This document shows, piece by piece, positions 229 to 21,477 of a DNA stretch of 28,652 bases (positions within the stretch are counted from its first letter, which is position 1; each line of letters starts with the position of its first letter). The position numbers and the translations under genes were made by a program. The DNA lies in IMG/VR virus record IMGVR_UViG_3300044641_002933, positions 1-28,652 of that record; one strand, written 5' to 3'. The stretch is from a virus. The notes beneath the pieces were generated by a model, which was given only the letters and a program-made list of their open reading frames with translations, searched no databases and was not told the DNA's origin.

Positions 229-792
229 ATGCCAAATTGTAACTACTTCAGTGTTGTAAATTATAATAATGTCCAAGAAGGATATTACAGTTGGACTGGG
301 TGTACGGGAGATATTAACATATCTACGATTGGTACCCTTCAAACTCAATATGTTTGTGCTCAAGATGTTGTGGAAGAATATTATGGCGCACCTCTGGACA
401 TTACAAATGAAGGGTTATGTCCATCAAGTACACCAACACCAACTGTAACACCTACGCCAACTCCAACACCTGTAACACCTACCCCAACTCCAACACCTGT
501 TACACCTACCCCAACCCCAACACCAAGTGTAACTCCAATTGTTATTTTCACATATAATTTATGGGCTGGAGGATATTATCAAAATGCTTGTGAAGCTGCG
601 GGCATGTTCTCAAATCCTGCAAATGTAACAATATATGTTACAAAACCATTTGAATTATTGGTTCCTGGCGATAATGTGTTTGGTAATTCGTCATTAACTA
701 TACCCCCAATCAATTCTAATTTCACTATTAGTAATGGTTCTAGATTCATTCAAATTAGTGGAACTTTAATTTTGAATGTCGGAGTATGTTAA
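229..792 (+). CDS. Thr/Pro-rich two-domain virion protein (mucin-like linker)
   Basis: A 187-aa protein with three visible parts. Residues 1-65 form a Cys/Tyr/Asn-rich N-terminal domain with several Cys (C4, C25, C43, C64). Residues 66-103 are an extended Thr-Pro linker. Residues 104-187 form a C-terminal domain rich in beta-forming and Asn/Gly residues, ending in Cys. There is no signal peptide or membrane segment. The linker is built from three 27-nt units encoding V-T-P-T-P-T-P-T-P. Such linkers are common in phage fibres and surface adhesins, and a virion-surface role is inferred. The next gene encodes a second Thr/Pro-rich protein, and a polypeptide GlcNAc-transferase-like gene follows, so the linker is a candidate O-glycosylation substrate. 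The exact function is unknown. Confidence 0.8.
   Translation: MPNCNYFSVVNYNNVQEGYYSWTGCTGDINISTIGTLQTQYVCAQDVVEEYYGAPLDITNEGLCPSSTPTPTVTPTPTPTPVTPTPTPTPVTPTPTPTPSVTPIVIFTYNLWAGGYYQNACEAAGMFSNPANVTIYVTKPFELLVPGDNVFGNSSLTIPPINSNFTISNGSRFIQISGTLILNVGVC
445..525 (+). repeat. Three tandem 27-bp units encoding VTPTPTPTP
   Basis: Three in-frame copies (445-471, 472-498, 499-525) differ by only a few third-codon-position changes. Each encodes nine residues, V-T-P-T-P-T-P-T-P. This is a coding minisatellite whose copy number could vary by slippage or recombination, changing linker length without breaking the frame. Confidence 0.9.
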
Positions 793-830
793 TTAATCAA
801 AAATAATGGATTTTTTTAAGAACATTACAA

Positions 831-837
831 TATTTAT
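831..837 (+). promoter_or_regulatory. TATTTAT element upstream of the second Thr/Pro-rich gene
   Basis: TATTTAT (TATTTATAATAAAA context) lies 15 bases before the ATG at 853, inside the 60-base gap between the two Thr/Pro-rich genes. It matches the recurrent element seen before most transcription units here. The promoter role is inferred. Confidence 0.4.
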
Positions 838-852
838 AATAAAACAATTAAA

Positions 853-1179
853 ATGGCTTGTAGTAAATATACTTTAACAAATACGGGTTCAACCGTAGTA
901 AACTTCAATTATAGAAGATGTGACGATTCAATGTGGGAATACCAAGTAAATCTTGACCCTAACGAAACTAAAAATATTTGGTTAATAAACGACACTTACA
1001 GTATTGCACCATCATTTAATGGTAGTGTTTATTTGGTTGATGACGGAGCATATCCATTGACTCCAACTCCATCACCTTCAATTACTGCAACCCCAACACC
1101 TACGGTTACTCCAACAATAACACCAACAACCTCGGTTACACCAACAAAAACACCGACACCAACTCCAACACAACCATAA
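853..1179 (+). CDS. Small Thr/Pro-tailed virion-type protein
   Basis: A 108-aa protein. Residues 1-67 look like a small beta domain, with motifs VVNFNYRRCDD, Asn/Thr-rich strands and a YLVDDG segment. Residues 68-108 are a Thr/Pro/Ser tail with no further fold, ending TPTPTPTQP. Unlike its neighbour, the Thr/Pro segment is C-terminal rather than a linker. The tail is about 40% Thr/Ser, typical of mucin-like stalks. There is no signal peptide. It is followed at 1201 by a strong terminator, so 229-1179 probably forms one transcriptional block separate from the glycosyltransferase genes. A surface-exposed virion protein is inferred from this architecture; no specific family is recognised. Confidence 0.78.
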   Translation: MACSKYTLTNTGSTVVNFNYRRCDDSMWEYQVNLDPNETKNIWLINDTYSIAPSFNGSVYLVDDGAYPLTPTPSPSITATPTPTVTPTITPTTSVTPTKTPTPTPTQP

Positions 1180-1200
1180 AACATTAGAATATTTTAAATA

Positions 1201-1235
1201 AACCCTTCACCTTCGTGGAGGGTTTTTTATTTTTA
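1201..1235 (+). terminator. Rho-independent terminator after the Thr/Pro-rich genes
   Basis: A 10-bp stem (AACCCTTCAC with GTGGAGGGTT, one G-T wobble) encloses a CTTC loop at 1211-1214 and is followed by a T-rich tract. It begins 21 bases after the stop at 1179. It separates the Thr/Pro-rich genes from the glycosyltransferase run. Confidence 0.9.
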
Positions 1236-1254
1236 TGTTTAAAATATAATATAC

Positions 1255-2520
1255 ATGAAAATATTCGTTCAAATTGCGTCTTACAGAGACCCTCAGTTGG
1301 TTTTTACTATTAAAGACATGTTGGAAAACGCCAAAAAACCAAATAACCTTGTTATCGGTATTGCAAGACAATATAGTCCTGAAGATGGGTTTGATAACTT
1401 AGATGAATATAAAGATGACAAAAGATTTAGAATATTAGATATTCCATATCAAGATGCCAAAGGTGTGTGTTGGGCAAGACACCAAGTCCAACAACTTTAT
1501 AAAGGTGAAACATACACATTACAAATTGACTCTCACATGAGATTTGTTAAGGATTGGGATGATATCCTTATCAAAATGATAAAGGGGTTACAGAAGGACG
1601 GTTATAAAAAGCCTCTACTTACGGGCTACGTTCCTTCTTTTGACCCCGAGAATGACCCAGCAGGAAGAGCAACCGATGCATGGAGAATGGTGTTTGACCG
1701 TTTTATTCCTGAAGGTGCCGTATTCTTCTTACCTGAAACAATTCCAGGTTGGAGAGAAATGAAAAAACCCGTAACCGCAAGATTTTACTCAGCTCACTTC
1801 TGCTTTACATTAGGACAATTCTCAACTGAGGTTCAACATAACCCTGAATATTATTTCCATGGAGAAGAAATTTCAATTGCGGTAAGAGCTTATACTTGGG
1901 GTTATGATTTATTCCATCCACACATTCCTGTTGTTTATCATGAATACACTCGTAAAGGTAGAACAAAACAATGGGATGACGATAAAAGTTGGGGACAAAA
2001 AAATAGTCACTCACATTTAACAAATAGAAAACTATTTGGCATGGATGGTGAAAAACAAGAAGGTCACGATGGTCCTTATGGTTTTGGACCTGTTAGAACT
2101 TTAACAGATTATGAAAAATACTCGGGTATTCTTTTTTCAAAAAGAGCAATTGATAAACACACTTTAGATAAGAATTACCCACCTAATCCATATAACTTTG
2201 AAACAGAACAAGAATGGAGAGATAGTTTCTGTATGATGTTCAAACATTGTATTGATATTGGATATTCTCAAGTTCCTGAAACAGATTATGATTTTTGGGT
2301 TGTAGCATTCCACGGTAAAGATGATAAAACATTATTCCGTAAAGATGCAGACAAAAATGAAATTGCAGGTTTCATGAGAGACCCTGACAAATATTGTAAG
2401 GTATGGAGAGAATTTCAAACTGATGAATTACCATCACATTGGGTTGTTTGGCCACACTCAGAATCAAAAGGATGGTGTGATAGAATTACAGGTCAATTAA
2501 CACATAATACGGTTAGTTAA
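1255..2520 (+). CDS. Polypeptide GlcNAc-transferase-like glycosyltransferase (GT60 / Pfam GlcNAc type)
   Basis: A 421-aa protein with hallmarks of the GlcNAc glycosyltransferase family (GT60, which includes Dictyostelium Skp1 and trypanosome polypeptide GlcNAc-transferases). These are an N-terminal IASYRDPQL strand, GVCWARHQVQQLYKGE around residues 70-85, and LQIDSHMRF around 89-97, whose D92-S-H94 is the DxD-like metal/nucleotide-sugar site. Later GEE and HxY-type motifs (FHGEEISIAVRAY; VYHEYTR) also fit. In eukaryotes this family transfers GlcNAc from UDP-GlcNAc to hydroxyproline or Thr. It has no membrane segment, so a cytoplasmic enzyme is expected. It heads a run of five glycosyltransferase-type genes and follows two Thr/Pro-rich proteins, so those are plausible acceptors. 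Family call strong; substrate inferred. Confidence 0.88.
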   Translation: MKIFVQIASYRDPQLVFTIKDMLENAKKPNNLVIGIARQYSPEDGFDNLDEYKDDKRFRILDIPYQDAKGVCWARHQVQQLYKGETYTLQIDSHMRFVKDWDDILIKMIKGLQKDGYKKPLLTGYVPSFDPENDPAGRATDAWRMVFDRFIPEGAVFFLPETIPGWREMKKPVTARFYSAHFCFTLGQFSTEVQHNPEYYFHGEEISIAVRAYTWGYDLFHPHIPVVYHEYTRKGRTKQWDDDKSWGQKNSHSHLTNRKLFGMDGEKQEGHDGPYGFGPVRTLTDYEKYSGILFSKRAIDKHTLDKNYPPNPYNFETEQEWRDSFCMMFKHCIDIGYSQVPETDYDFWVVAFHGKDDKTLFRKDADKNEIAGFMRDPDKYCKVWREFQTDELPSHWVVWPHSESKGWCDRITGQLTHNTVS

Positions 2521-2533
2521 GAAAGAAAATAGT

Positions 2534-3241
2534 ATGAGTTACGCAATTGCAACCTTTTGTTATGGTGAAAGATATTATGACCAAACAAATAGAATGATAG
2601 AATCATTTAAAAAAATTAAAGACATACCAAAAATTTTTGTTGTTACAGATAAACCAGAATCAATCACTAAAGAAGATTTTGTATTTGTATGTCACATTAA
2701 AGAATATGACGAAAAATATTCCACATATAGCACAAATTATTATGATTTTGATTTTTCAGTTAAAAGATTTTCAGTAAAATTTGCGTTAGATAGTGGATAC
2801 ACTAAGATAATCTTAGTTGATACAGATGTTATTCCAAACGAAACTTTATTTACTGAAAAAAACATATTAGATTGTTTTATTTCTAATGGTATTTCAGGAC
2901 AAGTGACATATCTATTTGAGGAAGAAATGGAACGTAATAGTATGTTAGGTGAAAGATTTAATTATTATGAGTCAAAATTTAATGTTAACTATAATAAAAA
3001 AGATATGTGGATGCCCGAAGATTGTATTCAATTTTTAGATATTGAAAAAGAAAAGTTTTATTCCTTTTTAACTACTTGGGACAAATGTATTGAAATTAAA
3101 TATTCTGACAACTTACGTAACACGCCAGCAGGAAATATTGACGAAATGTGTTTTTCCGCATTTCATAACGAAATTGAATTACATAATAATTCTAACAAAC
3201 ACATAAATCTATTAATCCCCAATCACGACAAATGGTATTAA
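2534..3241 (+). CDS. Putative GT-A-fold glycosyltransferase
   Basis: A 235-aa protein starting MSYAIATFCYGERYYDQTNR, a beginning typical of nucleotide-sugar transferases. An IILVDTDV segment at about residues 92-99 gives a DxD motif placed as in GT-A enzymes. A later region contains acidic and aromatic residues (FLDIEKEKFYSFL) and GNIDEMCFSAFHNE near 195-208. The donor and acceptor cannot be told. It begins 13 bases after the preceding stop, and its own end overlaps the next gene by 10 bases, so it is part of one translationally coupled operon. The glycosyltransferase call rests mainly on the DxD motif, the N-terminus and the context. Confidence 0.6.
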   Translation: MSYAIATFCYGERYYDQTNRMIESFKKIKDIPKIFVVTDKPESITKEDFVFVCHIKEYDEKYSTYSTNYYDFDFSVKRFSVKFALDSGYTKIILVDTDVIPNETLFTEKNILDCFISNGISGQVTYLFEEEMERNSMLGERFNYYESKFNVNYNKKDMWMPEDCIQFLDIEKEKFYSFLTTWDKCIEIKYSDNLRNTPAGNIDEMCFSAFHNEIELHNNSNKHINLLIPNHDKWY

Positions 3242-4077
3242 AAATTGTAACATCAGTATATGAATTAAACTATGAAGATTCCCGTGGAGGTATGGTATAT
3301 AAATCATATCCACTATTAAGTCAAACATTACGTAATATAATTTTTGATGGGTTTGAATATGTCATTTATACTGACCAACACACTTACGACAAGTATTACT
3401 TAGGTGACGAATTTAACCAACCCAATGTAACAATAAAGATTCAAGAATTAAATTCTAAAAATTATCTTGATAATATAAACCCAATTAGAATGTCCAACTT
3501 TTCGGACGGAGAAATTTACGATAGAATTTATTGTGTTAAAAATTACATAGAAGTTATTTTTAATAAATTACAATTTTTACTTGACGAATGTGAAGATAAT
3601 AAAAATGTCGTATGGATTGATTCAGGATTATTTGGAACTAGTTGTCACGACAGGTGGAGAGATTACATTAATGTTTTTGCCCATTCAGAATTATTTTTAA
3701 ACAAAATAAATGAAAAAATATCCGAAAATGGATTTATTTGTTTACGAGGTGAATCCATTCAAGTTAACTATGAATTGAAAGATGTTCTCGTTAATATGTT
3801 TAACACTGATTTTAAATTGGTCCCTGGTGGTTTATTTGGTGGAACAAGTGAAGAGGTTAAAAAAGTTTTATCTAACTATCCTTCAATTTTTGAAAAGTAT
3901 TATCAAACAACTAATAAGTTAATTAGCGAACAAGAAGTACTATCAATATTAACCCATACCAACGATGTTAAGTTTTTTAATTTTGGTGATTGGTTGGATT
4001 TACAAAGAAGTATTTTGGAAATTATGGATTTGTTGGATGTGAATAAATATAAAATAGATGAAAAATACGATGTATAA
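3232..4077 (+). CDS. HtrL/YibB-like putative glycosyltransferase
   Basis: A 281-aa protein resembling the HtrL/YibB family. It opens LKIVTSVYELN and has VVWIDSGLFG at about residues 124-134, where Asp gives the nucleotide-sugar site. It also has LVPGGLFGGT near 197-206 and an SEQEVLSIL segment after it. The same WIDxG and GGxFGG signature pair occurs in the N-terminal half of the gene at 4633, so the two are likely paralogous. The start is an ATG lying inside the last codons of the upstream gene (10-base overlap), consistent with coupling. The family is usually linked to surface-polysaccharide loci. The acceptor in this phage is unknown. Confidence 0.65.
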   Translation: MVLKIVTSVYELNYEDSRGGMVYKSYPLLSQTLRNIIFDGFEYVIYTDQHTYDKYYLGDEFNQPNVTIKIQELNSKNYLDNINPIRMSNFSDGEIYDRIYCVKNYIEVIFNKLQFLLDECEDNKNVVWIDSGLFGTSCHDRWRDYINVFAHSELFLNKINEKISENGFICLRGESIQVNYELKDVLVNMFNTDFKLVPGGLFGGTSEEVKKVLSNYPSIFEKYYQTTNKLISEQEVLSILTHTNDVKFFNFGDWLDLQRSILEIMDLLDVNKYKIDEKYDV

Positions 4078-4636
4078 TCCGTCTTTTAATATTGTATGCA
4101 CAACTATTGGGCGCGAGTCATTACCAAGATTAATTGATAGTTTTAAAAATCAATTATTACCTGATGATACTTTCACCATAATATCCGACACTAATCATGA
4201 GTTTGTAAAAAACGTTCTGTCCAATTATAATTTCAATTTTAAATTAAATCATATCATTAATGATGGTGAAGTATTGGGGAAATACGGACATCCTTTGTTA
4301 AATAAATACATTAATAACCTTGAGGGTGATTTTATTATGTTTGCAGACGATGACGATTATTATGTTGACGATGCATTTGAAAATATTAGAAAATATGTTG
4401 TAGAAAAAAAATTATATGTTTTTAAACATAAATGGGGAGACACAATTAATTGGACAGTAAAAGAAATGACACTTGGAAATATTGGTAAATGCATGGGGGT
4501 TATTCCTAACACAAAAACTCTACCTATGTTCCAAGAAAATATATTTGGAGATGGGTTATTTTATGAGGATTTAGCCAAAATATTTGAGTATGAATTTGTT
4601 GATAAAATAATATATAAAGTAAGAGATACAATATGA
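4058..4636 (+). CDS. GT2-like glycosyltransferase
   Basis: A 192-aa protein with a GT2 (GT-A) core. It has an N-terminal NIVCTTIGRESLPRLIDSFK, typical of family 2 enzymes, and FADDDDYYVDDA at about residues 95-106 carrying the DxD metal site. At 192 residues it is short for GT2 and may be a minimal catalytic domain. ATG codons at 4058 and 4070 are both possible starts; the second would overlap the upstream stop by 8 bases. Its end overlaps the next gene by the four bases ATGA, a classic coupling junction. The donor sugar and acceptor are not evident from the sequence. Confidence 0.7.
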   Translation: MKNTMYNPSFNIVCTTIGRESLPRLIDSFKNQLLPDDTFTIISDTNHEFVKNVLSNYNFNFKLNHIINDGEVLGKYGHPLLNKYINNLEGDFIMFADDDDYYVDDAFENIRKYVVEKKLYVFKHKWGDTINWTVKEMTLGNIGKCMGVIPNTKTLPMFQENIFGDGLFYEDLAKIFEYEFVDKIIYKVRDTI

Positions 4637-6312
4637 GTAAGATAACATTAGTCACAGGACTTTGGAATATTAAAAGAGATGAACTAACTGAAGGTTGGTC
4701 TCGTTCATTCCAACATTATTTAGATAAATTTGAGCAACTATTACAAGTTGAGAACCCAATGATTATTTTTGGTGATTCCGATTTAGAATCTTTTGTATTT
4801 GAAAGAAGAAGTCGCGAAAACACTCAATTCATTGCTCGTAGTCAAGACTGGTTTAAAAATAATGACTTTTATAATAAAATTCAAGAAATAAGAAATAATC
4901 CTGAATGGTATAATCTTGCGGGATGGTTACCTGAATCAACTCAAGCAAAATTGGATATGTATAATCCTTTAGTAATGTCTAAAATGTTTTTACTAAATGA
5001 TGCCAGAATTATGGACCAATTCAATTCAGAGATGATGTTTTGGATTGATGCGGGATTAACTAATACTGTTCATCCCGGATATTTTACTCACGACAAAGTG
5101 TTAGAAAAATTACCAAAATATATTTCAAAATTTTCATTTGTTTGTTTTCCATATGAGGCGAATACTGAAATACATGGATTTGAATTTAATAAGTTAAATT
5201 CTGTTGCGGGTTCAAAAGTTGATAAGGTTGCCAGAGGTGGATTTTTTGGAGGACCAAAACATACCATAACAGACATGAATGGAATATATTATAATTTTCT
5301 AAAAACTACATTAGAAGAAGGTTATATGGGTACTGAAGAATCTATTTTTAGTATTATGTGTTACACTCATTCCGATTTAATTAATTATTTTGAGATTGAA
5401 TCTAATGGTTTATTTGGTAAATTTTTTGAGGATTTAAAAAATGATGAATTAGTTGTTAAGTCGGAAGGTGCTAAAGAAGTCGTTGTTAATAACTTGGACA
5501 CAAATAAGGTTGGTTTATATGTTATAACATTTAATAGTCCAAAACAATTTGAAACACTAATACAATCAATGTTAGAATACGATAAAGATTTTATTATTAA
5601 ACCGAAAAAGTTTTTATTAGATAATTCAACTGATTTATCAACAACACCAAGATATAAAGAACTTTGTGATGAATATGGTTTTGAACATATTAAAAAAGAT
5701 AATTTAGGTATCTGTGGTGGAAGACAGTGGATTGCAGAGCATTTTCAAAATGAAACTGATTTAGATTTTTATTTGTTTTTTGAAGACGATATGTTCTTTT
5801 ATCCTAAAGAAGGTGATGTATGTCGTAATGGATTTAACCGATATGTCCCAAATTTATATACCAAAACACTTCAAATTGTTAAAAAAGAAAACTTTGATTT
5901 TTTAAAATTAAACTTTAGTGAGTTTTTTGGAGATAACGGAACTCAATGGGCGTGGTATAATGTCCCACAACATATTAGAGAACAATATTGGCCAGGTAAG
6001 AATAGATTACCAGAACAAGGATTAGACCCAAATGCTCCAAGAGCTGTTTATAATTCTGTCAACACATATCAAGGAGTACCATATGTAACAGGTGAAATTT
6101 ATTATTGTAATTGGCCTCAAATAGTTAGTAGAACAGGTAATCAAAAAATGTTTTTAGACACAACTTGGGCTCATAGTTTTGAACAAACGTGGATGAGTCA
6201 CATGTATCAGTTAGTTAAAAATGGTAGTTTATATCCCGGATTATTACTTATGACACCAACTGAACACGATAGATTTGACCATTATGAAAGAAGTTTAAGA
6301 AAGGAAAGTTAA
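4633..6312 (+). CDS. Bifunctional protein: HtrL/YibB-like domain fused to a GT2-like domain
   Basis: A 559-aa protein with two apparent glycosyltransferase domains. Residues about 1-260 contain MMFWIDAGLT (about 135-143) and a GGFFGGPKH motif, as in HtrL/YibB-like proteins, then a GTEESIFSIM segment. Residues about 295-559 start a second fold: YVITFNSPKQFETLIQSML, then NLGICGGRQWIAEHF, then FYLFFEDDMFF near 380-388, matching a GT2 core with an acidic metal site. A YVTGEIYYCNWPQ stretch follows. The start overlaps the upstream stop as ATGA. This is the last gene of the run, and its stop overlaps the convergent HNH gene by 4 bases. A fused enzyme adding two sugars in sequence is possible but inferred. 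Confidence 0.68.
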   Translation: MSKITLVTGLWNIKRDELTEGWSRSFQHYLDKFEQLLQVENPMIIFGDSDLESFVFERRSRENTQFIARSQDWFKNNDFYNKIQEIRNNPEWYNLAGWLPESTQAKLDMYNPLVMSKMFLLNDARIMDQFNSEMMFWIDAGLTNTVHPGYFTHDKVLEKLPKYISKFSFVCFPYEANTEIHGFEFNKLNSVAGSKVDKVARGGFFGGPKHTITDMNGIYYNFLKTTLEEGYMGTEESIFSIMCYTHSDLINYFEIESNGLFGKFFEDLKNDELVVKSEGAKEVVVNNLDTNKVGLYVITFNSPKQFETLIQSMLEYDKDFIIKPKKFLLDNSTDLSTTPRYKELCDEYGFEHIKKDNLGICGGRQWIAEHFQNETDLDFYLFFEDDMFFYPKEGDVCRNGFNRYVPNLYTKTLQIVKKENFDFLKLNFSEFFGDNGTQWAWYNVPQHIREQYWPGKNRLPEQGLDPNAPRAVYNSVNTYQGVPYVTGEIYYCNWPQIVSRTGNQKMFLDTTWAHSFEQTWMSHMYQLVKNGSLYPGLLLMTPTEHDRFDHYERSLRKES

Positions 6313-6959
6313 ATTAATATTTTATCACTTTTTTTAAGATTATCTTCGGCCCATAACGGTTGTAAATTTGTATAATGACAAAGTTTATAAATTTCTTCTT
6401 CAGTTTTGGCAGAAGATAATGGAATGATGTGGTCAATGTGCCATTTACCCTGATTACCCCAAGACATTCCTTCCGTAAATTTTCGTTCTAAATGTTCTTT
6501 AAGAGATTCTGGAGAACACCCAATAATATTAAATGTGGGATTATTTTTTGTTATGTTTTTTGTGATGAGGAATGTTCTAACTCTATTTCTTATATTGTGA
6601 GATAATTTATACAAACTATCACTATTATATCTAAACATCACATAATCTGAATAATAAGTTTTATTATTGAGATAATATTTTTTATTATACCCCGGATTTA
6701 AATTATTAAATTTTATTTTATAATCTAAAAATTTTTTTTCATTATTTTTATAATATTTTTTATTATAATCTGTATTTTTAGAAAACCACTTGTTATTATA
6801 CTCTTGTTTTTTTTGTGGGTGTTTTTTAATATAATCTCTATTTTTTAAACACCAACAAATCTTACATTCATTCCTATGACCATCTTTGGAATCTTTTCTT
6901 TTATTAAATTCGCAAAGTCCCTTTTCTTCTTTACACTTACTACAAATCTTTTTTTCCAT
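6309..6959 (-). CDS. HNH endonuclease with N-terminal zinc ribbon (homing-type)
   Basis: A 216-aa protein. Residues 1-37 carry a Zn-binding pattern C6-x2-C9 and C32-x2-C35. Residues about 38-110 are Lys/Tyr/Asn-rich with repeated YNKKYY-like units, probably a DNA-contacting spacer. Residues about 140-216 form the HNH nuclease: WHIDHIIPLS (H174, D176, H177), then NLQPLW (N198) and DNLKKSD (N207), the expected beta-beta-alpha metal residues. Free-standing enzymes of this kind are common mobile genes in T4-like phages. It starts inside the end of the RHH gene 6940-7095 (20-base overlap), so the two are likely co-expressed. It is convergent with the glycosyltransferase operon. Confidence 0.85.
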   Translation of the reverse strand: MEKKICSKCKEEKGLCEFNKRKDSKDGHRNECKICWCLKNRDYIKKHPQKKQEYNNKWFSKNTDYNKKYYKNNEKKFLDYKIKFNNLNPGYNKKYYLNNKTYYSDYVMFRYNSDSLYKLSHNIRNRVRTFLITKNITKNNPTFNIIGCSPESLKEHLERKFTEGMSWGNQGKWHIDHIIPLSSAKTEEEIYKLCHYTNLQPLWAEDNLKKSDKILI

Positions 6960-7095
6960 AATACTCTCTAAGTAATTTATTTATTAATGATGACTTTTTG
7001 GTTTTATCTTCAACCATTCTATCAAATAATTCTCGGTCTAAACTAATACCGAACTTAATTTTACAATCTTTTTCTTGTTTTTTTGGTCTTCCCAT
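6940..7095 (-). CDS. Ribbon-helix-helix DNA-binding protein (51 aa)
   Basis: A small gene of 51 codons starting at the CAT at 7093-7095 and ending at a TAG read from 6942 to 6940. The protein has the standard RHH layout: a basic N-arm (MGRPKKQEK), a beta strand (KIKFGISLD), helix 1 (RELFDRMVED) and helix 2 (SSLINKLLREYYG). It would bind DNA as a dimer. Its last 20 bases overlap the start of the HNH gene, so it probably acts with, or controls, that gene. A TATTTAT element at 7101-7107 lies five bases upstream of its ATG. Its target is unknown; its own promoter is the simplest guess. Confidence 0.82.
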   Translation of the reverse strand: MGRPKKQEKDCKIKFGISLDRELFDRMVEDKTKKSSLINKLLREYYGKKDL

Positions 7096-7100
7096 ATAAT

Positions 7101-7107
7101 ATAAATA
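7101..7107 (-). promoter_or_regulatory. TATTTAT element upstream of the RHH gene (minus strand)
   Basis: Read on the minus strand this is TATTTAT (TATTTATATTAT context), five bases upstream of the ATG at 7095. Just behind it, CAAATATA at 7112-7119 reads TATATTTG on the minus strand, a Bacteroidota -7 type box. The nearest TTTG is 23 bases away, which is slightly long. It faces the plus-strand element at 7156, making a divergent control region. Confidence 0.38.
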
Positions 7108-7155
7108 TCTGCAAATATAGTAAAAGTTTCACTATTATAAAACAAATTTACAATA

Positions 7156-7162
7156 TATTTAT
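7156..7162 (+). promoter_or_regulatory. TATTTAT element upstream of the baseplate-like gene at 7167
   Basis: TATTTAT sits four bases before the ATG at 7167. If it is a promoter core, the transcript would be leaderless or nearly so; otherwise it may be a translation-start signal. It is divergent from the copy at 7101-7107 (minus). Confidence 0.35.
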
Positions 7163-7166
7163 TGTT

Positions 7167-7544
7167 ATGGAATTTTACATAAAACAAAACGCAACTTTAC
7201 CAGTATTAAAAATGAGCGTGGTGAAAGATGGACGAGCAGGTTATCTACAACTGATGGAAGATTTGGCAGTTTCCACTATCTTTTTTACCATGATAGATGT
7301 AGAAACTGGAATTCCTAAAATTGTTTCAGCTCCTTGTGGTATTGTACCTTTAATATTACCTGTCGGTGCCACACCCGAATATTATGTATATTTTCAATTC
7401 ACTGCGAGGGATACAAATACACCAGGCAGATATCAAGGTCAATTTTTAATTAGGAATGACGAAGGTAATTTAATTCTTCCAATCAGAGAAGAATTATATA
7501 TCAACATCCAACCAAGTTTTATTTCAGAAACGGCTTGTTGTTAA
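7167..7544 (+). CDS. Small beta-rich baseplate/tail protein, BppU-N-like
   Basis: A 125-residue protein beginning MEFYIKQNATLPVL. I chose the ATG at 7167 over an in-frame ATG at 7083: the extra segment is Ile/Lys/Tyr-rich, unlike the rest, and lies across the divergent control region between this gene and the RHH gene. The protein looks like one Ig-like beta domain. It has alternating strands, an FFTMIDVETG element, an invariant-looking PGRYQGQFLI segment, and a final LPIREELYINI strand. This pattern resembles the N-terminal domain of baseplate upper proteins (BppU) and related tail attachments. It ends with a CC pair. The gene is not beside the main tail cluster, and its assignment as a tail component is tentative. 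Confidence 0.55.
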   Translation: MEFYIKQNATLPVLKMSVVKDGRAGYLQLMEDLAVSTIFFTMIDVETGIPKIVSAPCGIVPLILPVGATPEYYVYFQFTARDTNTPGRYQGQFLIRNDEGNLILPIREELYINIQPSFISETACC

Positions 7545-12298: not shown

Positions 12299-13831
12299 TT
12301 ATTGTATATTGTACATTAATGAATCTAATGGGAATACAAAATTACCTTTAACAATTTTTGGTTTTTTATTAAAAATTAAAACATTCTTACCTTTTTGGAA
12401 AATCATTAAATCTGTGTTATAAATCTTAACACTCGCAGTTCCCTCTAAGGTAATACCATCTTCAGATACAATAATATTTCTGAAAGGTTTGATTTGAGCG
12501 GTATATTTTTTCTCATTATTTTTTAATTCTAAATCCACTCCTTGAATAGCATCTTTCTTACTTCCTAACTCACCTATTATTTCAACTTCAAACTCGTTGC
12601 CAAAATGTCTTCTAATAATTGCGGCTGTAATCGCTTCTCTTTTTGAACCGGCTTTATCTTTTTCAGTTAAGGTTCTTAACAAGTTATGAAGAGTTGAACT
12701 ATCTTTATCAAATATTCTATATTTGTAATGGTCTATTGCTCTTATAAATCTTTCAACCTCTTTTTTCTGCTCTGATGGAGTTTTATCCATGAAGTTTATT
12801 GGAACCTTGTTTGGAATAGTTGCAATCACTTTATTCAAATCTTTCAACAAAATACAGAACGCAGTATAATTTGTATTTAACTTATTGATTACCGACCTAC
12901 CAGGTCCCTCAAGATTATAGACACCAGGTAATTGGTCATTTTCGGGTGTTGAAATATAATTTTCAGAAAACATTTCTTTCATAATTTTGTTAATCCCATT
13001 CATGTAAGTCCATTTAATATCTGAATTAACATTGAATAACATTCTATAAAATTCATTTTCAGAAGAAGAACACATTTCAGATTTACCTTCAGTTAATACT
13101 TGTTTCATCTTGGTTGATTCCGCCAATTTCGTTTCAATTTTCATTTCATACATTTTACTAACAAAATCCCAATTAACAACTTTCCAAAAGTTTGTAATGT
13201 ATTCATCTCTTTTGTTTTTGTATTTCAAGTAATAAGCATGTTCCCATAAATCTAATCCGAGTAATGGAAATCCACCACCTTCAATTACATTCATTAATGG
13301 ATTATCTTGGTTTGGTGTGGACATAATCTTCAAAGTATTTTTTGAAGTTAGTATTAACCATACCCATCCTGAACCGAATCGGTCTTTGGCTTGTTTTTCA
13401 AATTCTTTTTTGAAGTTGGTGAATGTTCCCCACTGTTTGGTTATCTTTTTATAAAGTTCACCTTCAAGTTTTTTTGGGATTGGGGTTAAGAAATTCCAAA
13501 ACAATGCATGATTAAACGCACCGCCAGCGTTATTTCTTATTGTCTTATCAAAACGACTGATTGTTTTTATTATTTTTTCTAAATCTAAATCCCCGTATTC
13601 TTTTTTTGCGAGGGCATCGTTCAATTTATCCACATATGTTTTATAGTGTTTATTGTAATGTAGATTCATTGTCTCAGGGTCAATAAACGTCTTCAAGGAT
13701 GAATAGGAGTAAGGTAATTTTTCTATCCCTATTTTTTTCATTTCTGTAATCAACAACTTCTTTTCTTGGTTAATGCGGTTTTCAAGTATTTGTGTTTCTA
13801 GTTGTTGGATTTTCTTTTGTGTTTTTTTCAT
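12299..13831 (-). CDS. Mn-type superoxide dismutase fused to a PD-(D/E)XK nuclease-like domain
   Basis: A 510-aa fusion. Residues 1-37 are a Lys/Gln/Glu-rich probable coiled coil. Residues about 38-230 form a full Fe/Mn superoxide dismutase: HYNKHYKTY (H58; H62 and Y66 of the gate), NNAGGAFNHALFW (H108), FGSGWVWLI, and LDLWEHAYYLKY (D194, H198). All four metal ligands remain. The AGG near H108 and Q175 in PNQDNPLM point to the Mn subtype. Residues about 231-250 are a linker with LAES and LTEG. Residues about 260-510 are helical, then contain GVDLEL (D433, E435) and YTAQIKPF (Q446, K448), like a PD-(D/E)XK core with Q in place of E. The fusion suggests radical protection combined with DNA binding or cutting. 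The SOD call is very strong, the nuclease call moderate. Confidence 0.88.
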   Translation of the reverse strand: MKKTQKKIQQLETQILENRINQEKKLLITEMKKIGIEKLPYSYSSLKTFIDPETMNLHYNKHYKTYVDKLNDALAKKEYGDLDLEKIIKTISRFDKTIRNNAGGAFNHALFWNFLTPIPKKLEGELYKKITKQWGTFTNFKKEFEKQAKDRFGSGWVWLILTSKNTLKIMSTPNQDNPLMNVIEGGGFPLLGLDLWEHAYYLKYKNKRDEYITNFWKVVNWDFVSKMYEMKIETKLAESTKMKQVLTEGKSEMCSSSENEFYRMLFNVNSDIKWTYMNGINKIMKEMFSENYISTPENDQLPGVYNLEGPGRSVINKLNTNYTAFCILLKDLNKVIATIPNKVPINFMDKTPSEQKKEVERFIRAIDHYKYRIFDKDSSTLHNLLRTLTEKDKAGSKREAITAAIIRRHFGNEFEVEIIGELGSKKDAIQGVDLELKNNEKKYTAQIKPFRNIIVSEDGITLEGTASVKIYNTDLMIFQKGKNVLIFNKKPKIVKGNFVFPLDSLMYNIQ

Positions 13832-18234: not shown

Positions 18235-21200
18235 ATGGCAACAGCACAAGCAAATCAAAAAGTATATGTATCACCAGGGGTGTACACATCTGAAACCGAC
18301 TTATCTTTCGTAGCCCAAAGTGTGGGTGTAACGACTTTAGGTCTTGTTGGAGAAACTATCAAAGGTCCAGCATTCGAACCAGTATTCATAACTAACTACG
18401 ATGAGTTTCAAGCTTATTTCGGGGGAACTGAACCCGTTAAGTTTTATAACACTCAAATACCAAAGTATGAGGCGGCATATATTGCTAAATCATATTTACA
18501 ACAATCAAACCAATTGTTTGTTACAAGAGTTTTAGGTTTATCAGGTTACGATGCAGGTCCATCATGGTCTCTTGCAGTTACAGCAAATGTAGACCCAACA
18601 ACTATTGGTGACCCATCTACTGGAACATCATTTACTGCAACATTCACAGGGAACTCAACAGGAAATACTGTGAACTTTATTTCAGGTTCGTTACCTGCAC
18701 AGGTTATTGCAAACTTTTCAGTTCAATACAAATTACAAGATGGAAGTACATCTTCATTACAAACAGATTTTAACACCTATTTGGATGCTGTCATGGACAC
18801 ACCATCAACATCAGCAACAACCGCTGTAATATATGGTGCAATTCCTGAATCAGCATATTTTTCAGTAACTGGTCAATATTCAACAATTATAAACCCTTTT
18901 GATTGTGAAAATAATTTCGCACAAAATGATTTAACTGCAAGTAATAATGATTCTTGGTATTATGCTGACTTTAATTTCCAAAACGGAGATTCATTAACTA
19001 ACAACTACACAGGGTATTCATTCTATTACTCAGTTTCAAATTTAATCTCAGGTGCTAGTGGAGCTTTCACAGGTACTGTTGTAGGTAATTCATATACATT
19101 TACAGGTACTCCTTATACAGAGTTTAACAACATGGTGATTGCAACTCTTCGTTCAAGAGGTATTTCAAACTATGAAAACAATAGTTCAAGTATTTCCCAT
19201 GGACCCGTTTATGAAGTTGGTATTGATTACGATAATAATAACACTTGGGTACCAAACAACCTTCAATTAATTTGTACAGGACAATATTCAGAAATCACAA
19301 GTTCACCATATTCACAGTTCTTGTTATCAGGTGTAACTAAAGATAACAATACATTCACATTTGAAGCATCTATGTTAGCTTCGGATTCAAAATATATCAC
19401 TAAAGTATTAGGTGTGGATAATTTTGGAAAATCAAGATTTGAAGTCCCAATTTATGTTGAGGAAGCTTATCAGGGTTCTTTAAATTATGCCTATAATCAA
19501 GGATATATTCGTGGTTTGGCATGTGATTTAATTGCATTACCTGATGCTAGAAGTGAAAATTCATCATCTATTGCGTATAATTTAGAAAGATACCAATCAC
19601 CTGAAACACCATTTTTAGTTTCAGAATTAAGAGGTAATAAAGTTTATAAATTATTCAAGTTCATTTCAATTTCTGATGGAGATGCTGCAAATACTGAAGT
19701 TAAAGTTTCAATTGCGAATCTATCGTATAACAACATGAGTTTTGATGTTTTAGTTAGAAATTTCTTTGATACGGATGCTAATCCAGTTGTTATTGAGAAA
19801 TTTACAAACTGTAATATGGACCCAGCATCTAACAACTTCGTTGCTAAGAAAATTGGTTCGTCTAACGGTGAATTTGCTTTAATTTCAAAATACATTATGA
19901 TTGAAATGGCTGATGAGGCACCTATTGACGCATTACCTTGTGGTTTCTATGGTTATACACAAAGAGAATATTCAAGTTTTGATACATACCCTTCACCATA
20001 TCCTAAATTTAAAACAAAATACTATTATCCTGGAGAGGTTATATCTAACCCACCATTTGGTGCAAATGCGGGTGGAGCACCTGTTGAATCTGCGGGAGAC
20101 ATTGTTAGAAGAAGTTATTTAGGTTTTTCAACTCAATTTGGTATTGACGAATCTTTCTTAACATATAAAGGAAAACAGAATCCTTCAAACTGGATTTCAA
20201 ATCCTTTAGTTGAAGGTCAACCTTGGAATATTATCAGTAAAGGTTTCCACATGGACTCAGGTGCTACGGTTGTTACAATGGCTAATACTTATATGTCAAG
20301 TGGTCAAACAGCATTTGAATGTGGTGTTGCTGATTTCACCAATGACCCTCAAACTCAAGAAAATCCTTACTACTTTATATACTCAAGAAAATACACAGTA
20401 TGTTTTGCTGGTGGTTTTGATGGTTGGGATATCTACAGAGAATGGAGAACTAACCAAGACAGATTCCAATTAGGGGCTTCAGGTTACTTGGCAGGTGCAT
20501 CTGCATCTTCAAGATACCCAACAGCTACAGGTGATGGTTTATTCAAGAGAATTGTTGTTCAAAATAACACTCAAGATTTTGCAAATACTGACTACTACGC
20601 TTATTTACTTGGTATCTTAACATTTGCAAATCCTGAATCAACAAACATTAACATATTCGCAACTTCAAGTATTGATTATATCAATAACTCTAATCTTGTG
20701 GAAGAAGCAATTGACATGGTTCAATATTCAAGAGCTGACTCGGTTTATATTGCAACAACCCCTGACTACAACATGTACACTCCTGATTCAACAAACCCTC
20801 AAGATATTATCTACTCTCAAGAAGCTGTTGATAACCTTGATAACACAGGAATTGACTCTAACTATACCGCAACTTATTATCCTTGGATATTAGTTCGTGA
20901 TACAGTTAATAATACACAAATTTACTTACCACCAACTGGTGAGGTTTGTAGAAACTTAGCGTTGACTGATAACATTTCATTCCCATGGTTCGCATCAGCG
21001 GGTTACACAAGAGGTCTTGTAAACTCAATCAAAGCTAGACAAAAACTTACACAAACTGATAGAGATACATTATATCAAGGTAGAATTAACCCTATCGCAA
21101 CTTTCTCTGATGTTGGAACTGTAATTTGGGGTAACAAAACATTACAAGTTGCTGATACGGCACTTAACAGATTGAATGTAAGAAGATTATTACTTCAAGC

Positions 21201-21477
21201 TCGTAAGTTGATTTCAGCAGTTGCTGTTAGATTGTTATTTGAACAAAATGACCAAATTGTTAGACAACAATTCTTGGATAGTGTAAATCCAATCTTGGAT
21301 TCAATCAGAAGAGATAGAGGTCTTTATGATTTCCGTGTAACAGTGTCTTCAACACCTGAAGATTTAGATGCTAACAGACTAGTAGGTAAAATCTACTTAA
21401 AACCTACGAAGGCATTAGAATTCATTGATATTGAGTTCTTCATCACTCCAACAGGAGCTTCGTTTGAAAATATTTAA
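18235..21477 (+). CDS. Contractile tail sheath protein (T4 gp18-like), greatly enlarged
   Basis: A 1080-aa protein. The N-terminus (about residues 1-105) has YVSPGVYTSETDLSFV, TTLGLVGETIKGPAF and YLQQSNQLFVTRVLG, a standard sheath opening. The C-terminal 160 residues contain RGLVNSIKARQKLTQ, GRINPIATFSDVGTVIWGNKTLQ, RLNVRRLLLQARKLI and a final GKIYLKPTKALEFIDIEFFITP, the polymerisation domain shared by phage sheaths. T4 gp18 is 659 residues. Here the region between about 105 and 900 is enlarged, Ser/Thr/Asn/Gly-rich and beta-like, so it probably forms extra surface-exposed domains on the sheath. The protein packs around the tube and contracts on infection. A UUCG-loop terminator follows directly. 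Confidence 0.95.
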   Translation: MATAQANQKVYVSPGVYTSETDLSFVAQSVGVTTLGLVGETIKGPAFEPVFITNYDEFQAYFGGTEPVKFYNTQIPKYEAAYIAKSYLQQSNQLFVTRVLGLSGYDAGPSWSLAVTANVDPTTIGDPSTGTSFTATFTGNSTGNTVNFISGSLPAQVIANFSVQYKLQDGSTSSLQTDFNTYLDAVMDTPSTSATTAVIYGAIPESAYFSVTGQYSTIINPFDCENNFAQNDLTASNNDSWYYADFNFQNGDSLTNNYTGYSFYYSVSNLISGASGAFTGTVVGNSYTFTGTPYTEFNNMVIATLRSRGISNYENNSSSISHGPVYEVGIDYDNNNTWVPNNLQLICTGQYSEITSSPYSQFLLSGVTKDNNTFTFEASMLASDSKYITKVLGVDNFGKSRFEVPIYVEEAYQGSLNYAYNQGYIRGLACDLIALPDARSENSSSIAYNLERYQSPETPFLVSELRGNKVYKLFKFISISDGDAANTEVKVSIANLSYNNMSFDVLVRNFFDTDANPVVIEKFTNCNMDPASNNFVAKKIGSSNGEFALISKYIMIEMADEAPIDALPCGFYGYTQREYSSFDTYPSPYPKFKTKYYYPGEVISNPPFGANAGGAPVESAGDIVRRSYLGFSTQFGIDESFLTYKGKQNPSNWISNPLVEGQPWNIISKGFHMDSGATVVTMANTYMSSGQTAFECGVADFTNDPQTQENPYYFIYSRKYTVCFAGGFDGWDIYREWRTNQDRFQLGASGYLAGASASSRYPTATGDGLFKRIVVQNNTQDFANTDYYAYLLGILTFANPESTNINIFATSSIDYINNSNLVEEAIDMVQYSRADSVYIATTPDYNMYTPDSTNPQDIIYSQEAVDNLDNTGIDSNYTATYYPWILVRDTVNNTQIYLPPTGEVCRNLALTDNISFPWFASAGYTRGLVNSIKARQKLTQTDRDTLYQGRINPIATFSDVGTVIWGNKTLQVADTALNRLNVRRLLLQARKLISAVAVRLLFEQNDQIVRQQFLDSVNPILDSIRRDRGLYDFRVTVSSTPEDLDANRLVGKIYLKPTKALEFIDIEFFITPTGASFENI

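Follow-up and report, generated by a model that had tools for sequence, protein, structure and literature searches.

A phage GT60 transferase beside Thr/Pro-rich proteins as the probable initiator of mucin-type O-glycosylation with exchangeable glycotypes

We analyzed a virus fragment, IMG/VR record IMGVR_UViG_3300044641_002933, which was taken whole at 28,652 bases (the window), and focused on the locus at positions 229-6312, where genes for threonine/proline-rich (Thr/Pro) proteins stand beside a glycosyltransferase gene of the GT60 family. We conclude that this locus probably encodes a mucin-type O-glycosylation system, in which GT60 would start sugar chains on phage structural-type proteins and exchangeable neighbouring genes would create different glycotypes. 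The family and predicted fold of the enzyme, the synteny, the properties of the tracts and the exchange of cassettes were observed, and from them we infer the activity, the sugar, its linkage, the location in the virion and the benefit. An earlier note, made from the sequence alone, had described two open reading frames (ORFs) with Thr/Pro tracts ahead of a gene with GT60 signatures, followed by four more glycosyltransferases with overlapping ends. The seven ORFs were confirmed (genes were called by a simple script), all on the + strand and with unchanged coordinates. The features of the locus, with lengths in amino acids (aa), are as follows.

229..792, + strand: Thr/Pro-rich protein 1, 187 aa, with an N-terminal part, a Thr/Pro tract at residues 55-103 and a C-terminal part
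391..537, + strand: Thr/Pro tract of protein 1, presumed acceptor, 17 Thr and 17 Pro in 49 residues
853..1179, + strand: Thr/Pro-rich protein 2, 108 aa, with a conserved N-terminal part of about 62 aa and then a Thr/Pro tail
1045..1176, + strand: Thr/Pro tail of protein 2, presumed acceptor, residues 65-108, 17 Thr and 13 Pro in 44 residues
1200..1225, + strand: hairpin resembling an intrinsic terminator, with a T run, in the gap that separates the Thr/Pro genes from GT60
1255..2520, + strand: GT60-family polypeptide glycosyltransferase, presumed initiator, 421 aa (PF11397, predicted fold, invariant motifs)
2534..3241, + strand: variable-cassette protein, 235 aa, without a convincing family match in Pfam or PHROG; five members in 77 cassette loci
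3232..4077, + strand: HtrL/YibB-like presumed glycosyltransferase, 281 aa, divergent within f0, the commonest inner family
4058..4636, + strand: GT2-family glycosyltransferase of the variable cassette, 192 aa (PF00535 above cut-off)
4633..6312, + strand: protein with two GT-A domains (HtrL_YibB and GT2-like), 559 aa (PF09612, AlphaFold model, PDB matches)

The GT60 signatures were borne out. The 1255-2520 product matched the PF11397 profile, 'Glycosyltransferase (GlcNAc)', with 224 bits (cut-off 21; E=5.1e-66), and phrog_24687, 'glycosyltransferase', at E=8e-167. Two motifs, D92-S93-H94 and the H229-EYTR block (H229-R233), were invariant in 39 aligned phage GT60 sequences, down to 34% identity; we take D92-S93-H94 to be a DxH-type metal motif with a catalytic role. 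No solved structure was homologous to the enzyme by sequence at E<=1. An AlphaFold2 model built with 37 sequences as input had a mean pLDDT (predicted local distance difference test) of 93, and both Foldseek and a second look with VIA-align ranked polypeptide N-acetylgalactosaminyltransferases (GalNAc-transferases) first for it. In this second look, which covers Foldseek's top 1000 PDB chains, so that families missing there mean nothing, the top 29 rows were all polypeptide GalNAc-transferases (Z 19.3-22.0; 262-279 residues aligned, 3.3-3.8 A), and other GT-A enzymes did not exceed Z 16.9. Polypeptide GalNAc-transferases initiate mucin-type O-glycans in animals and Toxoplasma. As modelled, the GT60 fold is nearest to the polypeptide N-acetylhexosaminyltransferase type, with a clear gap, and a shared fold is not proof of a shared acceptor. 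Among named phages, GT60 relatives at E<=1e-5 were present in Xanthomonas phage XacN1 (ORF334, 45% identity) and, at 44%, in CM1 and Stenotrophomonas phage RAS14.

The two Thr/Pro ORFs ahead of GT60 were the only 2 of 47 window ORFs to pass a cut of 18 Thr, Pro or Ser in 25 residues, and not one ORF reached this cut when the pooled window proteome was shuffled for 1000 rounds. We further examined whether such ORFs stand beside GT60 in other viruses, a synteny search that the earlier note had proposed. In IMG/VR, 356 stretches encode GT60 relatives, and the best 80 of these 356, whose enzymes share 85-97% identity with that of the window, were kept as set A. The letters A-D stand for the queries used to retrieve the sets and do not denote branches of a tree. 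Set B comprises 46 loci retrieved with an enzyme of 41% identity; relative to the window GT60 their median identity is 38.5%, with L395 and L398 nearer at 52 and 62%. Set C has 19 loci, XacN1 and RAS14 added, and set D has 10. Set A was testable at 76 of 80 loci (at least 300 bases before GT60), and the distance to a Thr/Pro ORF was up to 1 kb in 71 of these and up to 3 kb in 75. The same held within 1 kb for 41 of 45 testable set-B loci (39 when L395 and L398 are subtracted). There the Thr/Pro ORF was usually one or two genes downstream of GT60, and the usual partner, in 17 of 20 representatives, was a different protein of about 535 aa. In one set-B relative the Thr/Pro protein contains SprB repeats, which prompts the guess that phages of the window clade infect Bacteroidota. 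The link between GT60 and Thr/Pro ORFs is strong in both set A and set B, set D shows it in part, and XacN1-like loci lack it at close range. The proposed search thus found the initiating transferase linked to candidate acceptor genes in more than one lineage, and failed to find this for the XacN1-like enzymes.

The Thr/Pro proteins themselves vary greatly in length. Homologues of protein 1 were found in 49 and of protein 2 in 70 of the 80 close-relative loci. For protein 2, the type nearest to GT60, 45 distinct relatives spanned 68-1095 aa, and their first 62 aa had a mean identity of 74%. Where at least 9.5 kb of upstream sequence was available in set A (n=36), we counted 2-5 Thr/Pro ORFs per locus (median 4), with a median of 161 threonines in their tracts (range 67-332). 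The two proteins of the window are thus a modest version, since other members reach 1786 aa. Threonine codon use inside the tracts (ACA 46, ACT 40, ACC 8 and ACG 6%) was close to that outside (48, 33, 12 and 7%), so that selection on the tracts at the protein level is likely; microsatellite slippage as their sole source was ruled out on the same ground. Proline codons were shifted toward CCA (72% against 48%), which makes some repeat expansion at the DNA level likely. What was found is what we would look for in an acceptor: a dense Thr/Ser and Pro tract of variable length, with ordinary Thr codon choice and shifted Pro codons. One large carrier matched the virion-protein family phrog_8510 (E=1e-16), by way of a LamG-type domain only (Pfam Laminin_G_3), and the carriers may be located in the virion. 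The small conserved protein at 7083-7544 of the window resembles, by eye and from gene maps, the N-terminal part of longer Thr/Pro relatives (L236:13574-14791 and L235:1584-2816); tracts may therefore be added to proteins as modules.

The association was also evaluated from the opposite side, by a Thr/Pro DNA pattern. From this search we kept 70 distinct records that contain a Thr/Pro ORF and lay outside the GT60 set at that point (of 74 listed Thr/Pro-ORF loci, three on known GT60 contigs and one sharing a contig were dropped, and 40 further loci of the scan, L164-L203, were left out). PF11397 was found in 10 of the 70 (7/50 and 3/20, the second batch counted without six known positives) and in none of 50 control records, which carry a repeat of the same form and were chosen from 80 listed loci for longer contigs, without an ORF filter or length matching (Fisher p=0.005, uncorrected for kinship). 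In the ten GT60 loci obtained this way (set E, picked by the Thr/Pro pattern, so that the presence of a Thr/Pro ORF is not independent), such an ORF lay within 1 kb of GT60 in six and within 3 kb in eight. In addition, 27 of the 29 GT60 records longer than 100 kb contained the Thr/Pro pattern, and none the reversed pattern. In the 15 of these 29 whose matches were fully listed, with dense runs thinned to tract ends, GT60 was nearer to a tract than under random placement (combined p=1e-5, the records being partly dependent, since G074/G116 and G071/G117 look like near-duplicates). Tracts also lay tens of kb from GT60 in several large genomes, and in G129 the distance from GT60 to a tract was 45 kb.

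GT60 is not restricted to viruses. A scan of the genome collection gave 207 GT60 relatives, of which the best 80 were kept and a GT60 ORF was called in 72; a Thr/Pro ORF lay within 1.5 kb in six of these, one being probably a phage contig (L556). On a Saprospiraceae contig, the protein beside GT60 combined a Thr/Pro/Ser repeat and a type IX secretion system (T9SS) sorting domain with an N-terminus that by eye is twin-arginine-like. We observed that 11 of 15 Burkholderiales loci carried, 3.7-5.2 kb from GT60, a gene for VgrG, the type VI spike, with C-terminal Pro-Thr/Ser repeats whose unit varies by genome (L577:13075-15564; L572, L573, L579-L581, L583, L585, L586, L588 and L599). The other four (L563, L569, L582 and L593) had no VgrG match in the stretch examined. 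The domains of these VgrGs are hub, OB and gp5-trimer, as in the phage tail spike. In eight Burkholderiales genomes we compared the VgrGs found at E<=1e-60: a Pro-Thr/Ser tail was present in all eight near GT60 and in none of 16 paralogues, three of which run off the end of the locus. We judged tails visually, as a simple score failed to separate the near-GT60 L633 protein from paralogues, and the Fisher value of 1.4e-6 overstates independence because the eight near-GT60 VgrGs are probably orthologues. Together with the family, the nearest fold, the synteny and the reverse search with its control, this paralogue comparison supports the suggestion of the earlier note that Thr/Pro proteins are the acceptors. 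In some bacterial loci (L578, L580, L584 and L592) GT60 genes occur in tandem.

When we examined the genes downstream of GT60, a constant enzyme and a changing interior were apparent. Between GT60 and the 559-aa gene, the 77 cassette loci (76 of set A and the window; families are single-linkage clusters) held 17 gene sets from 30 families, 52 loci sharing one two-gene set. L003 and L005 have GT60s that are 99% identical and different cassette gene sets. Where set-A loci extend at least 7 kb downstream (n=73), the 559-aa gene was present in 72, and direct matches to the 235-, 281- and 192-aa genes of the window in 4, 5 and 1. As GT60 and the two-domain enzyme stay constant and the inner genes vary in this close clade, the phages would show different 'glycotypes', comparable to O-antigen clusters. 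Inner genes elsewhere encode GT25 enzymes as well as GT10 fucosyltransferase-like and PLOD-type glycosyltransferases (both above cut-offs); another product is an FtsJ-type methyltransferase, whose match to rhamnosyl O-methyltransferases was sub-threshold.

Of the four downstream glycosyltransferases in the earlier note, three could be substantiated. The 4058-4636 product matched GT2 (PF00535, 28.9 bits against a cut-off of 23.3) and the 4633-6312 product HtrL_YibB (PF09612, 64.5 bits against 24.1). A Pfam search with the 3232-4077 product gave no match; its family aligned with the HtrL_YibB domain of 4633-6312 in hhalign (probability 98.9%, E=1e-17). The 2534-3241 product stays unconfirmed. 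The last four ORFs do overlap, by 10, 20 and 4 bases, and 1255-2520 overlaps neither neighbour. The model of the 559-aa protein (mean pLDDT 90, predicted template modelling score 0.56) has two GT-A domains, the N-terminal one similar to GT6-type enzymes (Z about 13) and the C-terminal one to B4GALNT1 and O-mannose GlcNAc-transferase (Z 14-15); only single domains agree, since the matches spanning both (LH3 and Mimivirus R699 among them) had a root-mean-square deviation of 16-17 A. This family was found near GT60 in 77/80 loci of set A, 16/19 of set C and 1/10 of set D. On three Myxococcales-type contigs (L568:17-3649, L610:3652-6897 and L620:2756-6019), a single frame encodes GT60 and, after it, stretches matching the two halves of the 559-aa protein at 31-37% identity (E 1e-29 to 1e-61); the L568 fusion also has a sub-threshold methyltransferase match. 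Other enzymes near GT60 include a carbamoyltransferase (8/14 set-C, 1/6 set-D and 2/6 set-E representatives) and a UDP-galactopyranose mutase (PF03275, E=6e-72; for example L419:13086-14201). The mutase was found in 4/6 set-D representatives and suggests galactofuranose in the chain.

The system would work as follows. During assembly in the host cytoplasm, GT60 (1255-2520) would place an N-acetylhexosamine (HexNAc) on tract threonines of its neighbours 229-792 and 853-1179, and of their larger relatives in other genomes. The donor would most likely be UDP-N-acetylglucosamine (UDP-GlcNAc), giving GlcNAc, and the linkage probably alpha-HexNAc. This sugar would then grow and diversify into a short oligosaccharide through the enzymes of the cassette (2534-4636) and the two-domain transferase (4633-6312). 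The carriers, multi-domain proteins resembling fibre or decoration proteins, would finally join the particle and expose dense sugar chains on stiff Thr/Pro stalks.

Mycobacteriophage virion glycans are reportedly made by phage-encoded transferases. These glycans lie at the C-termini of capsid and tail tube proteins (Freeman 2023, as cited in PMC12619734) and are like the system proposed here in being on virion proteins; GT60 and mucin-like tracts are unmentioned in the citing passage. For XacN1, at least two glycoproteins, unnamed there, were reported from proteomic analysis (PMC5852040), so that this phage has in common with the window a GT60 homologue (ORF334) and, as proposed here, glycoproteins; unlike the window, it has no adjoining Thr/Pro gene, its large Thr/Pro ORF being 8.8 kb away. 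Moraphages are large aquatic phages with mostly Bacteroidota as predicted hosts and four core putative glycosyltransferases (PMC12619734). The words 'threonine' and 'proline' are absent from the moraphage main text by word count, and Thr/Pro proteins go unmentioned in the excerpts of the XacN1 and moraphage accounts (PMC5852040, PMC12619734).

Two eukaryotic systems also resemble the locus. In Trypanosoma cruzi, mucin O-glycosylation is started by a UDP-GlcNAc:polypeptide alpha-GlcNAc-transferase (PMC3769586) that bears the GT60 label (PMC6939170), and there, as in the window, a GT60-family enzyme is combined with Thr-rich mucin-like proteins. Its GlcNAc-Thr chains can bear galactofuranose (PMC3769586), to which the set-D mutase gene is a suggestive parallel only. 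The T. cruzi enzyme acts in the Golgi on glycosylphosphatidylinositol-anchored mucins, whereas the window has viral genes, Thr-Pro alternations and a predicted activity. The Skp1 system likewise uses a GT60 (Gnt1) and then a two-domain transferase (PgtA), as the window has GT60 and 4633-6312; the domains of PgtA are GT74 and GT2, those of 4633-6312 HtrL_YibB and GT2-like (PMC6939170). It acts on a single hydroxyproline of one protein and requires a prolyl hydroxylase (PMC6939170), and the oxygenase family PF13640 was mostly not found in large GT60 records. Within excerpts of the open-licence PMC literature, GT60-started mucin-type O-glycosylation was described only for eukaryotes, and no GT60 mucin-type phage system with paired acceptors and exchangeable cassettes was found; the open-licence PMC literature also yielded no paper on VgrG glycosylation. 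Virion glycosylation as such is thus already known.

Several observations weigh against this mucin-type system. The main exception is the XacN1-like GT60s: none of 16 loci had a Thr/Pro ORF within 1 kb. In seven of the 16 (XacN1 and RAS14 included) one lay 5-9 kb away, and nine had none in the stretch examined. In set C as a whole, two of 19 loci were positive within 1 kb, both with 37%-identical enzymes nearer to set B, and in set D four of ten. The locus L413, with a GT60 70% identical to that of the window, contained no Thr/Pro ORF. When GT60s were clustered, at least one member was positive within 1 kb in 12 of 31 clusters at 70% identity and in three of seven at 50%. Sixty of the 70 Thr/Pro records were without GT60, many being fragments, and 66 of the 72 called bacterial loci had no Thr/Pro ORF within 1.5 kb. 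The two-domain transferase was rejected as a general partner, since it is nearly absent from set B (2/46). The N-terminal parts of two large carriers, which are putative virion proteins, had no match in 50,697 phage records. In addition, a terminator-like hairpin was present in 64 of 65 gaps between Thr/Pro gene and GT60 in relatives, against 14 of 1000 random 100-base windows. In the close clade this conserved hairpin rules out a single operon for the two blocks of genes; as read from the sequence, it is a terminator that puts them in separate transcription units, which would fit high expression of a structural protein and lower expression of an enzyme.

The tracts could also be flexible linkers that carry no sugar, with GT60 close by merely because both belong to a common structural-gene neighbourhood. 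The gene order of the close clade may simply be inherited, and Thr/Pro tracts occur far from GT60 in the same genomes as well as in records without it. We give this only a slim chance, because the linkage is kept in set B at a median identity of 38.5% and in a different order, because GT60 is nearer to a tract than random in the 15 large records (with their partial dependence), and because the VgrG paralogues lack tails. A more serious competitor, though still an unlikely one, is that the host surface (O-antigen, glycolipid or polysaccharide) is what GT60 and its partners act on, for superinfection exclusion, and that adjacency to Thr/Pro genes reflects a shared variable region. The name HtrL_YibB derives from lipopolysaccharide loci, GT25 and GT2 enzymes occur in the cassette, cassette exchange recalls O-antigen islands, and many bacterial GT60 loci have no Thr/Pro neighbour. 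However, polypeptide transferases are nearest in predicted fold and polysaccharide synthases lie clearly further off, and the Thr/Pro association recurs with different proteins and gene orders, and in the VgrG tail among paralogues.

Glycosylation of modified phage DNA bases in the T-even style appears very improbable. In its favour, 4633-6312 weakly matches phrog_842, beta-glucosyl-HMC-alpha-glucosyltransferase (E=0.009), and DNA glucosylation is among the readings given for moraphage glycosyltransferase genes (PMC12619734). However, the GT60 fold matches polypeptide transferases, Thr/Pro linkage and VgrG tails would be meaningless for DNA, and GT60 also occurs in bacterial genomes, sometimes beside secreted-type proteins. 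Finally, tract prolines might be hydroxylated first and GT60 then add GlcNAc to hydroxyproline, as Gnt1 does on Skp1. Gnt1, itself a GT60 member, requires hydroxyproline (PMC6939170), and the tracts are about equally rich in Pro and Thr. We consider this hardly probable and favour Thr, because PF13640 was rare (2 of 30 large GT60 records, in a search limited to PF13640, with other hydroxylase families and host enzymes outside it); the Burkholderiales tails, moreover, retain Ser or Thr next to Pro.

If GT60 indeed initiates mucin-type chains on the Thr/Pro proteins, the phage exterior would be antigenically variable in the manner of bacterial O-antigen, which matters for host attachment, particle protection, binding to mucus or biofilm, and the way the immune system recognizes phages in therapy. 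With the VgrG tails, the system would also reach bacterial injection machines. It is quite possible, and we propose this tentatively, that GT60 defines a general prokaryotic mucin-type O-glycosylation pathway for contractile injection and surface machines, which phages carry together with glycotype cassettes. Its targets would then be phage structural proteins, type VI VgrG spikes and secreted Bacteroidota proteins, and near-identical particles would wear different sugar coats.

Further along the window we found the following genes.

7632: DNA polymerase gene
18235: tail sheath gene
22451: tail tube gene
23024: baseplate hub gene

Since the tail sheath, tail tube and baseplate hub genes are present, the source of the window is a contractile-tailed phage. 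The glycosyltransferase cluster is ended by an endonuclease VII/HNH-like gene on the - strand at 6309-6959 (phrog_1035, E=5e-20), which is perhaps a free-standing homing endonuclease. Also on the - strand, a 510-aa ORF at 12299-13831 has, by eye, a superoxide dismutase-like N-terminal part and an unrelated C-terminal part; a PHROG search with it gave no match. The tail sheath (18235-21477) is very long at 1080 aa, and its best PHROG sheath match covers residues 791-1078, about the last quarter of the protein.

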